Positions 825 through 5,043 are shown, numbered from the stretch's first letter. The stretch is 5,070 nucleotides of DNA from a bacterium (GCA_040757115.1 JBFLYA010000267.1:1-5070); one strand, 5' to 3'. The notes: generated from the letters alone by a model not told the origin. Translations and numbers: made by a program.

Positions 825-2921
825 TTACGATTTAATAATATGTGGTGTGATAAATATCATTACCTCTGTTTCCTCGGTAATAGTCTTAACCTGTTTAAAG
901 AAGAAACCAATAATAGGAATACTTCCTAAAACAGGTATTTTGACTAATGAATTTTTTTTCTTCTTTTGAGTTAGTCCACCAATAATAATAGTTTCTCCTT
1001 CCTTGACCCTAACTTTTGTTTCTACATTCCGTTTATTAATGATAGGTAATCCTTGTGGTGTTCCTTCACCAGCAACATCACCTACTTCAGAAATAATCTT
1101 AACAGTAATTTCTCCTTTTTGGGAAATATACGGTGTAATATCAAGGATAATTCCTGATTCAATCGCTTTGAGTGTTACCGATTCATATCCTACCCTGCCA
1201 CTTAATAATTGATAAAATTCTTCTCTGGACAATTTGATTTTAGCCTGTTGTCCAGTTAATGTAACTACTTTTGGATTAGCTTTAATTTCTGCCTTTCCTT
1301 CCTTAACTAACATATCGATGAATGTAATTAGAGCCTGAGAGGTAAGGTCATTAGTAATTGTGTAGGAAATTTTTGAGGTTTTATCCGTTTCCTTTTTGAG
1401 CGTCACCGAAGAATCCTTCCATTTAAAATTCCAATTTGTGCCAATATTCCTTATTCCTTCTTTAGATATTTCTGCAATAAGGGATTCAATGACAACCTGT
1501 TGTGGTGGGATATCAATCAAAGCGATATCATTTTTAATACGCTCAATAAGGGGATCTGGGGCAGTGATAGTCACCAGATTCTTTCCCTTATTTACCTGGA
1601 TAAAGGATAAAAAGGATTGCGGTATGAGGGTTAGTAAATCTTCTGCTTGCAAATAGTTCAAATTAAGAAATTCTGTTGAGGTAAGTTTAGCAAATGACGG
1701 ACCAGTTGGATCAGCTAATCCTACCAGATAGTAATTATCAAATTTACAAAACATATATCCTTTTGGAGCAAGAACCATCTCTAATGCTTTTGATAAAGGG
1801 ACATCCTGGAGTTCTACCGTAATAACTCCTCGAACAGTATCATCGGGGATAATTGGTATTTTTGCCTGAGTTGATATATCTCGAAGCACTTGAGAGATAT
1901 CTGTTTCAAAGAAGACATTAGTGATTAATGGTTCTTCTTTTTTCGGCTCTTCTTTGACCTGGATTTCTCCTCTTTTTACAGAAGCAGGTATTGAAGATTC
2001 AAGTGATTTAGCCTCCTTTTTTATGGTTTCTATTGTTGAGGCTCCTACTTCTTTCTCTGGCAATATCTGTTGAGGGCTAACCTGAGATTTCTTCTTTTCT
2101 ACACTCTCCTCTTTTATTACTACTTCAACTTGATTGATTCCTGAAGTAATCTGTGATACTAAGGATGGTTCCATTAACCCAATGGTTATTCTACTTATAT
2201 GTGTAGGAGTAGTAAGCAATTGGATAATGGAAATGAAAGAAATATAAGAATTTTTCTTTATCTTTTTTCTTGTGTATTCACATTTACATTCTAAAAAGTC
2301 TATAACTATTAAAGAAGGGTCTTCTGTGCGAAAATGTTTTAGAATAGGGGTATTAGAAGTTTTTATTATTACTCTTATTTGTCCTTCTTCTTCTTTGATA
2401 TCAATATCTTTTATCTGATATAATTCCTTACTTTCCTTCTCCTTTTGTAGATATTCTTCTTGCTTTAGAGTAGGAACAGCTGTAAGGACAACTGTGTTAT
2501 TAACTGACTCCACTAAGGGAATAACAGGAATTCGGAATTCTATTTCGGCAATAGTAGTAAAATCTCTTCCTTCAACGACATTAATCTTTTTTATTATGCC
2601 TTGTTCATAGAATTCTGTATCCGACAACCAACTATTTATTGTATCCTCAAAGATTATTTTTGCTGAAAGATTATTAAAGGCACGGATAAGCGAATAATTG
2701 GCTTGTTGCTCGGTGATAAAGATAACCTTTGTTTTATTCTTCTCATCTCCTTCTTTTACATCAATATCTAAGAGTTGTGTGTGTTGTGCCCCAAAAGCTG
2801 GGCTGAATAAAAATAGATAAAATATCAACCAGAGATAGATTTTTGCTTTTTTACTTAACTGTAAGTTTTTGTTTTTTAGAGATTGGTTCTTTAGCGCCAA
2901 AATCGAGTTCCGCAACTGCAT
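825..2921 (-). CDS. PilQ-like outer-membrane secretin with AMIN domains
   Basis: A 698-residue secretin, the family that forms the gated outer-membrane ring of type IV pilus, type II and related export systems. The hydrophobic core of the signal peptide is at residues 29-40, with likely cleavage after G44 or A45. Two AMIN-type domains (about 48-148 and 168-270) probably bind peptidoglycan. A charged linker (271-332) leads to an STN/N0 domain (334-402) and an N1-type domain (408-470). The secretin core runs from PPQQVVIESLIAEIS (472-486) through ANPKVVTLTGQQAKI (548-562) and VKEGETIIIGGL (639-650) to IPVLGSIPIIGFFF (662-675) and EVMIFITPHII (686-696). AMIN plus N0-N1 order is the PilQ layout, not GspD. 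The stretch between the two core halves is short, so the barrel lip looks compact. ATG at 2921 is chosen for its good Shine-Dalgarno, although it overlaps the upstream gene by 71 nt and gives a long 28-residue n-region. No pilMNOP genes are visible, so the symbol pilQ is withheld. Confidence 0.93.
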   Translation of the reverse strand: MQLRNSILALKNQSLKNKNLQLSKKAKIYLWLIFYLFLFSPAFGAQHTQLLDIDVKEGDEKNKTKVIFITEQQANYSLIRAFNNLSAKIIFEDTINSWLSDTEFYEQGIIKKINVVEGRDFTTIAEIEFRIPVIPLVESVNNTVVLTAVPTLKQEEYLQKEKESKELYQIKDIDIKEEEGQIRVIIKTSNTPILKHFRTEDPSLIVIDFLECKCEYTRKKIKKNSYISFISIIQLLTTPTHISRITIGLMEPSLVSQITSGINQVEVVIKEESVEKKKSQVSPQQILPEKEVGASTIETIKKEAKSLESSIPASVKRGEIQVKEEPKKEEPLITNVFFETDISQVLRDISTQAKIPIIPDDTVRGVITVELQDVPLSKALEMVLAPKGYMFCKFDNYYLVGLADPTGPSFAKLTSTEFLNLNYLQAEDLLTLIPQSFLSFIQVNKGKNLVTITAPDPLIERIKNDIALIDIPPQQVVIESLIAEISKEGIRNIGTNWNFKWKDSSVTLKKETDKTSKISYTITNDLTSQALITFIDMLVKEGKAEIKANPKVVTLTGQQAKIKLSREEFYQLLSGRVGYESVTLKAIESGIILDITPYISQKGEITVKIISEVGDVAGEGTPQGLPIINKRNVETKVRVKEGETIIIGGLTQKKKKNSLVKIPVLGSIPIIGFFFKQVKTITEETEVMIFITPHIIKS

Positions 2922-4467
2922 AATAATTACCTCTTTTTAATTCTCCCTTATATAAAGATGAGATTATCCTTTTCTGGTTAGGTAAGAGAGGTTCTATTTC
3001 TTCCATCAACGGAATGTTAAGTATTTCTTTCCTCTTCTCTTCTTCATATATCCTTAAATTCCCTTTTGGACGGAGATGAATATTCCCTAAATTAACGAAA
3101 GTAATAGAGAAAGATAATGAATTATCTTTATTCTTCTGATAGGAGATATTTTCAATTTCAGCCTTTTTTACTGCCGTGTTAGGAATTTCTACAGTAATTG
3201 ATACCTCTGAGGTAACGGTTGCTTTTTTATCTTTCGTAAGACCGGCAAAACACAACTTAGCATATTTTCCACCATTAACTTCGCGGGGAACCCGAATAGA
3301 AAAAGAAAGATTTCGTTTATCTTTTGGAGAAAGGTTAAATTTAGATTGATTAATAGATATCCATTTAGCACAAGAATAAGGTTGGTTACCAGCAGGTAAA
3401 TAGGAAATTTGGCCATCCTCGTTAACAGCATAATCTTGGGGAAAAACCTCAACCTCTAATTCCGATTGACCTTCATTACGCACTAATATAGAAAAGCTTC
3501 GCATCCCTCCAGGAGGTGAGATTAAGTCAATAAAAGATGGTTCAATCCATAGTTTTTCTTTCTTCTGTGCTTCTTTACTGACAGCAATTAATTCCTCTTC
3601 CTTCAATTCTTCAATTTTACCCTTAGAAACTTTTATCTTCTTACTTTTGGTTTTTTCTCTCTTCCCTCCATAAACAAATTTAGTTTCTATTATATAGATT
3701 CCATCACGGATGTTAGATCGAAAATCTCCTTTAAAATCTCTAATTCCTTCTGGTAAAACAGTCCCTTTCCCTGCGGTAAGAGTAATTGGCTCTCCTCTAA
3801 GTTTATATCCTTGTTCATTCTTCAATACCGCTTCACCATTAGCAATAATATGAATATTCCCTGTATTTTTTAACGAGGCTATAATCTCATATCCTGAATA
3901 ATTTTTAGAGGGCTTTAATTGAATATCTTCTATAACTGCATTGGTAGTAAGTCCATATCCTTTAATCGTCACCAGTAAGAGTGAGGCTAATCGATAGTAG
4001 ATTGGTGTAGATTTCTCTATCTTCTCAGGAACAATTTCGACCATAATTGCAGAATATCTTCCGCCTAATTCCCCTTTGGGGACAGAAAGTTTACACATCA
4101 CTTGAATGGCTTCATTCCCGCGCAGCACCTTTTCTTTTGGTAGAATAGTTAACCATTGGGTACAAGAATATTTAGAGGTACCTGGCTTAGGAAATAACAC
4201 CTTTCCTTCTCTCTCTAAAACTAAGTCTGTGGCATATAATTTTATCTGCAAATCATTCTCACCATTATTTGTCAATAATAAAGGAAATGTTTTAACTGCT
4301 CCCTGGACGGTAGATAATTCTATGATTGGTGGAGTTAAAGTAAGTTTAAGCTCTGAATTTGAAACAGCAGGAAAAGTAGATAGAGCACAAAATATACATA
4401 TCCACTTTATTAACTGATAGGAATTTGTTTTTTGAGCATTTTTGATGTTACCTTCACTTTTACTCAT
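2851..4467 (-). CDS. Exported protein with two tandem DUF916/WxLIP-like Ig modules
   Basis: A 538-residue exported protein of unproven function. Residues 20-36 form a signal-peptide core, with cleavage likely near AVS/SNS (34-38). The mature part is an internal duplication. Each copy has an N-half (about 40-146 and 305-410) with the pattern P..I.L....G....F...V.N.G, D.....G.....P.G...YSC..W, then V.VP.....GG.Y, and a C-half (about 175-280 and 436-538) with N.GNIH and a final G.Y.....V/F.G strand. This resembles WxL-interacting proteins (DUF916 followed by DUF3324) and other pilus-chaperone-like Ig folds. A Lys/Glu-rich linker (281-304) separates the copies. No C-terminal membrane helix or sorting signal is seen, unlike Gram-positive WxLIPs. 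It leads the operon and shares 71 nt with the secretin gene, hinting at a shared job in envelope assembly or adhesion. ATG 4467 has no Shine-Dalgarno and appears leaderless. Family membership is by motif pattern only. Confidence 0.85.
   Translation of the reverse strand: MSKSEGNIKNAQKTNSYQLIKWICIFCALSTFPAVSNSELKLTLTPPIIELSTVQGAVKTFPLLLTNNGENDLQIKLYATDLVLEREGKVLFPKPGTSKYSCTQWLTILPKEKVLRGNEAIQVMCKLSVPKGELGGRYSAIMVEIVPEKIEKSTPIYYRLASLLLVTIKGYGLTTNAVIEDIQLKPSKNYSGYEIIASLKNTGNIHIIANGEAVLKNEQGYKLRGEPITLTAGKGTVLPEGIRDFKGDFRSNIRDGIYIIETKFVYGGKREKTKSKKIKVSKGKIEELKEEELIAVSKEAQKKEKLWIEPSFIDLISPPGGMRSFSILVRNEGQSELEVEVFPQDYAVNEDGQISYLPAGNQPYSCAKWISINQSKFNLSPKDKRNLSFSIRVPREVNGGKYAKLCFAGLTKDKKATVTSEVSITVEIPNTAVKKAEIENISYQKNKDNSLSFSITFVNLGNIHLRPKGNLRIYEEEKRKEILNIPLMEEIEPLLPNQKRIISSLYKGELKRGNYYAVAELDFGAKEPISKKQKLTVK
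2929..2934 (-). promoter_or_regulatory. Shine-Dalgarno of the secretin gene, inside the upstream CDS
   Basis: AGAGGT lies 7 nt before ATG 2921. It is the only strong ribosome site near the start and decides the choice of the overlapping ATG over in-frame TTG codons downstream. The same bases encode Lys-Arg-Gly in the upstream protein (residues 511-513), so the site is under double constraint. Confidence 0.7.
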
Positions 4468-4476
4468 TATGGAGAT

Positions 4477-4505
4477 ATTTTACCATAGATTTTATTTCCT
4501 GTCAA
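4477..4505 (-). promoter_or_regulatory. Sigma-70-type promoter, probably giving a leaderless mRNA
   Basis: On the minus strand a perfect -35 TTGACA (4500-4505) is followed by a 17-nt spacer and -10 TAAAAT (4477-4482), five of six matches to TATAAT, preceded by TGG as an extended -10. Transcription would start about 7 nt later, near A4470, only about 3 nt before ATG 4467. There is no ribosome site in that gap, which agrees with leaderless translation of the first gene. An AT-rich tract from repeat D lies directly upstream of the -35 and could act like an UP element. Confidence 0.75.
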
Positions 4506-4513
4506 CAAAAAAA

Positions 4514-4538
4514 TTCGACCTGTGAAATAGGAATATTT
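4514..4538 (+). repeat. TTCGACCTGT repeat, copy D, beside the operon promoter
   Basis: 25 bases identical to copy A at 9-33, in the same orientation. Its A-rich end (4507-4513) comes within a few bases of the -35 box of the leftward promoter. Copies A and D therefore flank the two-gene operon and the left repeat region as direct repeats about 4.5 kb apart. Confidence 0.7.
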
Positions 4539-4907: not shown

Positions 4908-4967
4908 AATCCGCAATTTTTCAAACAAAAGTGAACCGTCCCGAGAATTCTACCTCATCCTTCATTT

Positions 4968-5043
4968 AATGTCCCATAGGGACAACATATCGGTAGAAAT
5001 AAATATCACACAAATAATGTCCCATAGGGACAATATATCGGTA
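4968..5043. repeat. Two 28-bp palindrome-bearing repeats, 48-bp period
   Basis: Two direct copies at 4968-4995 and 5016-5043 differ at one base. Each contains the palindrome TGTCCC-ATA-GGGACA followed by a tail ending ATATCGGTA. They are separated by 20 AT-rich bases. The short spacer and only two copies argue against CRISPR. Palindrome plus fixed tail is typical of REP/BIME-like or transposon-linked repeats, and more copies may lie beyond the window edge. Confidence 0.75.

Follow-up and report, generated by a model that had tools for sequence, protein, structure and literature searches.

A tandem WxLIP-like gene overlaps a secretin gene

We analyzed a 5,070-base-pair (bp) stretch of bacterial DNA (GCA_040757115.1, JBFLYA010000267.1:1-5070; hereafter the window), which is the entire contig C267 of a 4.3 Mb genome in 462 contigs (G000). 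Two clear genes lie on its minus strand, one for a WxLIP-like protein of 538 amino acids (aa) and then one for a 698-aa secretin (Table 1). An initial annotation had described them as a tandem DUF916/WxLIP-like gene overlapping a secretin gene, and both genes and their 71-bp overlap are indeed found. A sigma-70-type promoter-like site sits 9 nucleotides (nt) ahead of the ATG of the WxLIP-like gene; it has the best score on the minus strand and ties at 11/12 with a plus-strand site at 2395-2424. A congener (G001, contig C385) retains both genes, the overlap and an unchanged promoter-like sequence, and comparison with it gave dN/dS values of 0.36 and 0.45 for the two genes, indicating purifying selection. 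The contig ends without a visible third gene, and the unit looks like a two-gene transcript. As the window is a complete contig, its own lack of pil or gsp neighbours means little, and relatives are needed for that question.

Table 1. Features of the gene pair and its flanks, in window coordinates.
Feature	Position	Strand	Remarks
Tandem WxLIP-like protein, 538 aa	2851..4467	-	Signal-peptide-like N terminus, four predicted Ig-like domains, C-terminal anchor absent
First WxLIP/PapD-chaperone-like half, about residues 40-285	3613..4350	-	hhalign; fold matches
Second WxLIP/PapD-chaperone-like half, about residues 303-537	2857..3561	-	PF06030 at 3268-3537; fold matches
Secretin, 698 aa	825..2921	-	PF00263 E 1.3e-41; WxLIP-linked group, branch 100/98
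AMIN domain, residues 172-251	2169..2408	-	PF11741 E 1.7e-8
N0/STN-like domain, residues 338-391	1749..1910	-	PF21305/PF07660 below cut-off; conserved in alignment
N1 (Secretin_N) domain, residues 418-475	1497..1670	-	PF03958 21.7 bits, below the cut-off of 28.2
Secretin channel domain, residues 538-697	831..1310	-	PF00263
Coding overlap, 71 bp	2851..2921	-	Also 71 bp long in G001:C385; mostly 4 bp in relatives
Shine-Dalgarno-like AGAGGT	2929..2934	-	Precedes secretin ATG; by inspection
Sigma-70-type promoter-like site, TTGACA-17-TAAAAT	4477..4505	-	11/12, TG before -10; consensus match only
Terminator-like stem-loop	703..715	-	After secretin stop; weak, as the window has 4 against 2.6 expected

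The pair is conserved across phyla and adjoins genes for small signal-peptide proteins

With a single window protein as the query against genome contigs we found no close relatives, and a search with an alignment found three named contigs; viral contigs yielded nothing. At 38 loci the secretin start lies -71 to +1 bp from the stop of a tandem WxLIP-like gene, with an overlap of 4 bp being usual. The arrangement is looser at a few others (638 bp at one locus, divergent but adjacent at two, and 2.5 kb away at one), and two loci (L131 and L179) cannot be compared, as either the contig or the flank that was read ends too early. The two-gene order was found in at least four phyla. Within the phylum of the window, three other families hold the pair (G010, G014 and G017, with overlaps of 4, 55 and 14 bp), and the genome of the window carries a second, diverged copy on contig C6 (32% and 42% identity) that is divergently transcribed. 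Outside this phylum, we found the pair in G356, in all three species of the phylum of G064 (in one of which the contig end cuts the WxLIP-like gene), and throughout a phylum of 103 species, 50 genomes of which match the tandem profile. Of the pair-bearing contigs in the families of G010, G014 and G017, three have names: Yes70-08, Yes70-25 and UBA9088. A WxLIP-like gene is absent from nine loci of other secretins, and about 25 loci where WxLIP-like genes occur singly or in another arrangement lack a secretin. In the wide loci of relatives, we saw neither pilM-pilP nor gsp genes next to the pair. On contig C6, the paralogous secretin has an RpoE-like sigma factor gene downstream of it, recognized by eye (L027:12623-13279), which is also present in G001:C201.

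At most loci, one to three genes for small signal-peptide proteins (SSPs) stand immediately upstream of the pair; the proteins mostly measure about 190-260 aa, and a few are longer. The SSPs are homologous across phyla (blastp 4e-22, G356 against G064), and a profile built without the 103-species phylum, which we assign to the Thermotogota below, matches the SSPs of these Thermotogota-like genomes with E-values down to 3e-41. No Pfam family was matched by the SSPs, and no WxL match appeared at E 10, a search whose sensitivity is limited by the HMMER filters and by divergence. SSP relatives are also encoded elsewhere in the genome of the window, namely three consecutive ones on contig C209, two on C44 and one on C6, about 14 kb from the paralogous pair (E 3e-11 to 6e-6); any tie between these and the window copy is a guess. 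The SSPs of G010 and of contig C209 have an alternating-hydrophobic beta-strand at their extreme C terminus; the subunits of chaperone-usher pili likewise end in an alternating-hydrophobic C-terminal beta-strand. The upstream SSPs are obvious candidates for the substrates of the pair.

On contig C6, an SSP-like gene lies between a PorV/UPF0164-like gene (identified by eye) and a gene for a gingipain-like C25 peptidase of 2589 aa that bears C-terminal signals for type IX secretion (L188:4469-14604; PF01364 E 1e-66, PF18962, PF13585). A similar arrangement occurs on contig C44 (L187), and SSPs may be connected with a type IX-like system.

Each half of the modelled WxLIP-like protein resembles a pilus chaperone

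The two halves of the 538-aa protein are homologous in profile-profile alignment (hhalign, 99.9% probability, E 1.9e-34), indicating an internal duplication. PF06030 (WxLIP_PGBD) exceeds its cut-off in the second half only (37.4 bits against a cut-off of 27.3, E 2.9e-9, residues 311-400). PF11797/DUF3324 is not among the listed Pfam matches; nonetheless, the fold match to WxLIP covers both domains. A sequence search of the PDB gave no WxLIP-like relative (best E 0.032). The protein has no C-terminal transmembrane or hydrophobic stretch, and its AlphaFold model, built on an alignment of only four sequences (pLDDT 78.9, pTM 0.46), comprises four immunoglobulin (Ig)-like domains and terminates in a strand. 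The duplication and the missing anchor had both been claimed in the initial annotation, and these results agree with it.

The best fold match of this model in the PDB is the Enterococcus faecium WxLIP bound to a long WxL protein (9i25_C, Z 17.4 over 232 residues, model residues 39-282), followed by the free E. faecium WxLIP (9i1y, Z 17.0). Below these rank some generic Ig proteins and then many pilus chaperones of the PapD family (Z 11-13.6); each of these chaperones covers both domains of one half. The first half (residues 40-276) matches YadV (Z 13.5) and CsuC (Z 13.2), the second (residues 298-536) matches SafB (Z 13.3) and CfaA (Z 13.2), and FimC, Caf1M and PapD score near Z 12-13. The proteins of cilia and sperm axonemes that top the Foldseek ranking were dismissed as generic Ig-fold matches (rmsd about 20 or more). 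The model thus suggests a two-domain Ig-like chaperone fold in each half. A shared fold alone shows no function, and it is on the strength of the fold shared with PapD-like chaperones that we adopt chaperoning as the leading idea. In the alignment, the first half has a conserved basic residue at position 65 and an invariant R159, both of which are candidates for a role in donor-strand complementation.

The closeness to E. faecium WxLIP also suggests another reading, in which, as in Gram-positive WxL clusters, the WxLIP-like protein would itself be located on the surface: it would leave with the SSPs through the secretin, and the two would bind to one another there. The top fold match is a WxLIP bound to its WxL partner, and a WxLIP with a small partner is the Gram-positive arrangement (PMC10599100). 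The WxL-WxLIP clusters of Firmicutes (PF06030/PF11797) share with our loci the two-domain Ig-like unit and the adjoining small secreted partners. They differ in that here two units stand in tandem, the C-terminal membrane helix is missing, the secretin is a constant neighbour and the partners have no Pfam WxL match. With neither a transmembrane helix nor another anchor in the WxLIP-like protein, and with PapD-like chaperones matching each half across both domains too, we consider a surface location unlikely. The initial classification as a WxLIP-type protein holds with one refinement: the relationship to WxLIP stands (PF06030; 9i25), and the predicted structure is a tandem of WxLIP/PapD-chaperone-like modules rather than simply that of a surface protein of the Gram-positive type.

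The secretin belongs to a group apart from PilQ and GspD

The channel domain places the second protein in the secretin superfamily with certainty (PF00263, 142.5 bits against a cut-off of 27.5). AMIN, N0/STN-like and N1 stretches precede it, the N0 and N1 matches being below cut-off in the window; the N1 match exceeds the cut-off in the group members of G010 and G014. AMIN is not general, since most secretins linked to a WxLIP-like gene lack it, and the 404-aa secretin of G010 and the 385-aa secretins of the Thermotogota-like genomes start directly at N0.

We compared 53 secretins in a midpoint-rooted tree, in which a group is one side of a branch and not a proven clade. All WxLIP-linked secretins (24 rows) fall on one side of a branch with support of 100/98, spanning the phylum of the window, G356, the f54 phylum and the Thermotogota-like phylum. 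The same side holds one more secretin, separated by 2.5 kb from a WxLIP-like gene that lies on the opposite strand. On the opposite side are PilQ, GspD and the remaining secretin types of these genomes. We rejected PilQ as the identity of the window secretin (TIGR02515, 176.6 bits against a cut-off of 284.35; outside PilQ in the tree; pilM-pilP genes unlinked), as well as GspD (TIGR02517, 158 bits against 351; no gsp neighbours observed in relatives), and it scores far below the curated cut-offs of SctC, HofQ and MshL. The secretin domain, N0/N1 and, in the window copy, AMIN are shared with PilQ and GspD; the separate tree group, the scores and the absence of pilMNOP or gsp neighbours set it apart. 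Thus, of the initial label 'PilQ-like secretin', the secretin stands and PilQ proper does not. In the f54 phylum, a second secretin of 600 aa lies directly behind the WxLIP-linked one (L129:2681-4483, L132:2109-3911).

The genome of the window carries six other secretin genes. Contig C68 has a locus opening with pilM (PilM_2 E 5e-54) and containing its own PilQ-type secretin, and contig C15 has a secretin among genes that are gsp-like by eye; both secretins fall outside the group of the pair. This bears on a second alternative, in which the WxLIP-like protein would act as a scaffold bound to peptidoglycan, or in the manner of a pilotin, to assemble the secretin and position it for type IV pilus or type II machinery whose genes lie elsewhere in the genome. 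The genome of the window does have pil and gsp-like loci elsewhere, secretins need assembly and peptidoglycan-anchoring factors, PF06030 is named as a peptidoglycan-binding domain, and the window copy has AMIN. However, the pil and gsp-like loci have secretins of their own in other tree groups, AMIN is missing from most WxLIP-linked secretins, and the conserved neighbours are SSP genes rather than pil genes. Moreover, the WxLIP-linked secretin is the sole secretin of G017 (95% complete; pilus ATPases were not searched for there), which argues against a mere type IV pilus accessory. We therefore regard the scaffold explanation as improbable, if slightly less so than a surface location. Together, the conserved adjacency, the separate secretin group and the location of the pair outside ordinary type IV pilus and type II loci support the initial proposal of a stand-alone secretin with a dedicated partner.

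The Thermotoga maritima secretin TM1117 is very probably a member

One genome of the 103-species phylum (G473) has two secretins, at 91 kb and 1,130 kb. Two T. maritima secretins, TM0088 and TM1117, are listed as putative pilQ (PMC5637354 Table 6), and the positions in G473 fit these two by gene number, so that we take the small 387-aa secretin to be TM1117. T. maritima was also among the matches of a control search with PF06030. We infer that the phylum is very probably the Thermotogota and its WxLIP-linked secretin T. maritima TM1117. The operon in G473 consists, in order, of three SSP-like genes, the tandem WxLIP-like gene (544 aa), the secretin gene (387 aa) and a gene for a 370-aa protein. 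Exported proteins of 370-396 aa are encoded directly behind the secretin in Thermotogota-like operons (L203:10467-11579, L204:10308-11480, L130:5061-6251), and two of the three match the secretin domain very weakly (E 0.04-0.08).

In the open-access literature, the only treatment of TM1114-TM1117 that we found is that competence list, according to which the small secretin might serve DNA uptake. The list took known competence genes as its reference and did not test the genes listed. By gene number, pilC (TM0094) is near the other, large secretin (about 1190-1310 aa, TM0088-type), and no com or pil genes were seen beside the small one. A competence secretin is the least likely of the alternatives considered here, and we give it little credence.

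WxLIP-like genes and repeats in other settings

A second, secretin-free arrangement on contig C3 of the genome of the window combines a gene for a small secreted protein (179 aa) with two consecutive genes for tandem WxLIP-like proteins of 484 and 511 aa and a gene for a protein of 1444 aa (L030:3959-12262), and it is kept in three genomes of the family (also L037 and L039). In a third arrangement, a single WxLIP-like gene (about 270-360 aa) is followed by a gene for a 700-920-aa protein (L031, L038, L040, L041, L134, L135 and L147). This larger protein has SdrD_B-like Ig domains in all four cases scanned (L038, L134, L135 and L147), small secreted proteins are often encoded upstream, and the arrangement could be an usher-like system, for which Pfam gives no identity. 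Two related secreted proteins of 160-172 aa beside a single WxLIP-like gene (L128:9376-9894, L128:9910-10392) look WxL-like by eye (NWxVKC ... GxYxGQIxYTYL) and have no Pfam match.

Intergenic repeats occur at both ends of the window: a 43-nt inverted repeat (277-319 and 414-456, 91%), an element of 29-32 nt around TCGACCTGTGAAATAGGAATATTT that occurs three times (2-33, 357-385 and 4503-4538), and a 29-nt direct repeat with copies 48 bp apart (4967-5043). These repeats may be the reason that the contig ends here.

A putative chaperone-secretin module

We propose that the two genes form the core of a 'chaperone-secretin' module dedicated to export or surface assembly, a reading to which we assign a probability of roughly 55%. 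The pair itself, its conservation, the separate secretin group, the linked SSP family and the predicted fold are results, and the mechanism that follows is our interpretation of them. Both proteins of the pair carry Sec-type signal peptides, and the SSPs would cross the inner membrane by Sec. The tandem WxLIP-like protein would be soluble and periplasmic, and its two PapD/WxLIP-like two-domain units would capture the small, beta-rich SSPs through beta-strand interactions. It would then hand them over to the ring that the co-translated secretin forms in the outer membrane, and through this ring they would reach the surface and form a layer or fibre there. No ATPase is linked to the pair, and we suggest folding and assembly energy as the driving force. 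A close parallel is with chaperone-usher pili (PapD, FimC, Caf1M, CsuC), in which a two-domain chaperone comparable to each half of our protein shares an operon with small signal-peptide proteins and an outer-membrane channel. Here, the channel is a secretin and two chaperone-like units are fused.

Several points weigh against this proposal. No PapD_N/PapD_C, usher or pilus-subunit Pfam matches are listed for the proteins of the module, and no usher is present, the neighbouring channel being a secretin. Ig folds are promiscuous, as the cilia proteins heading the Foldseek list illustrate, and the small alignment behind the AlphaFold model limits the confidence in the fold itself. The predicted SSP structure reached a pLDDT of 43 and was not used, and the Thermotogota-like SSPs continue for 15-20 residues beyond their last strand, unlike classical pilins. 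Finally, the window copy has no linked SSP gene; there the contig ends, and the promoter-like site lies directly before the WxLIP-like gene.

Secretins are familiar as outer-membrane exits for machines that draw their power from the inner membrane, and WxLIP proteins are familiar from the surfaces of Gram-positive bacteria. The component families are known ones, while the combination is apparently undescribed: in the open-access literature we found no description of a secretin with DUF916 or of orphan secretins of this sort. We see a fair chance that it represents a separate pathway. Somewhat short of even odds, in our estimate, is the fuller claim of an undescribed export and surface-assembly route that is neither a chaperone-usher system nor one of types II, III and IV. 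In it, a tandem WxLIP/PapD-like chaperone in the periplasm would supply a stand-alone secretin with small beta-rich subunits; the route would extend over at least four phyla and possibly help to build the Thermotogota cell surface (toga). If so, diderm bacteria would have a chaperone-based route with a secretin for its channel, and a function would be assigned to a secretin, very probably TM1117, that has so far been called pilQ by similarity.

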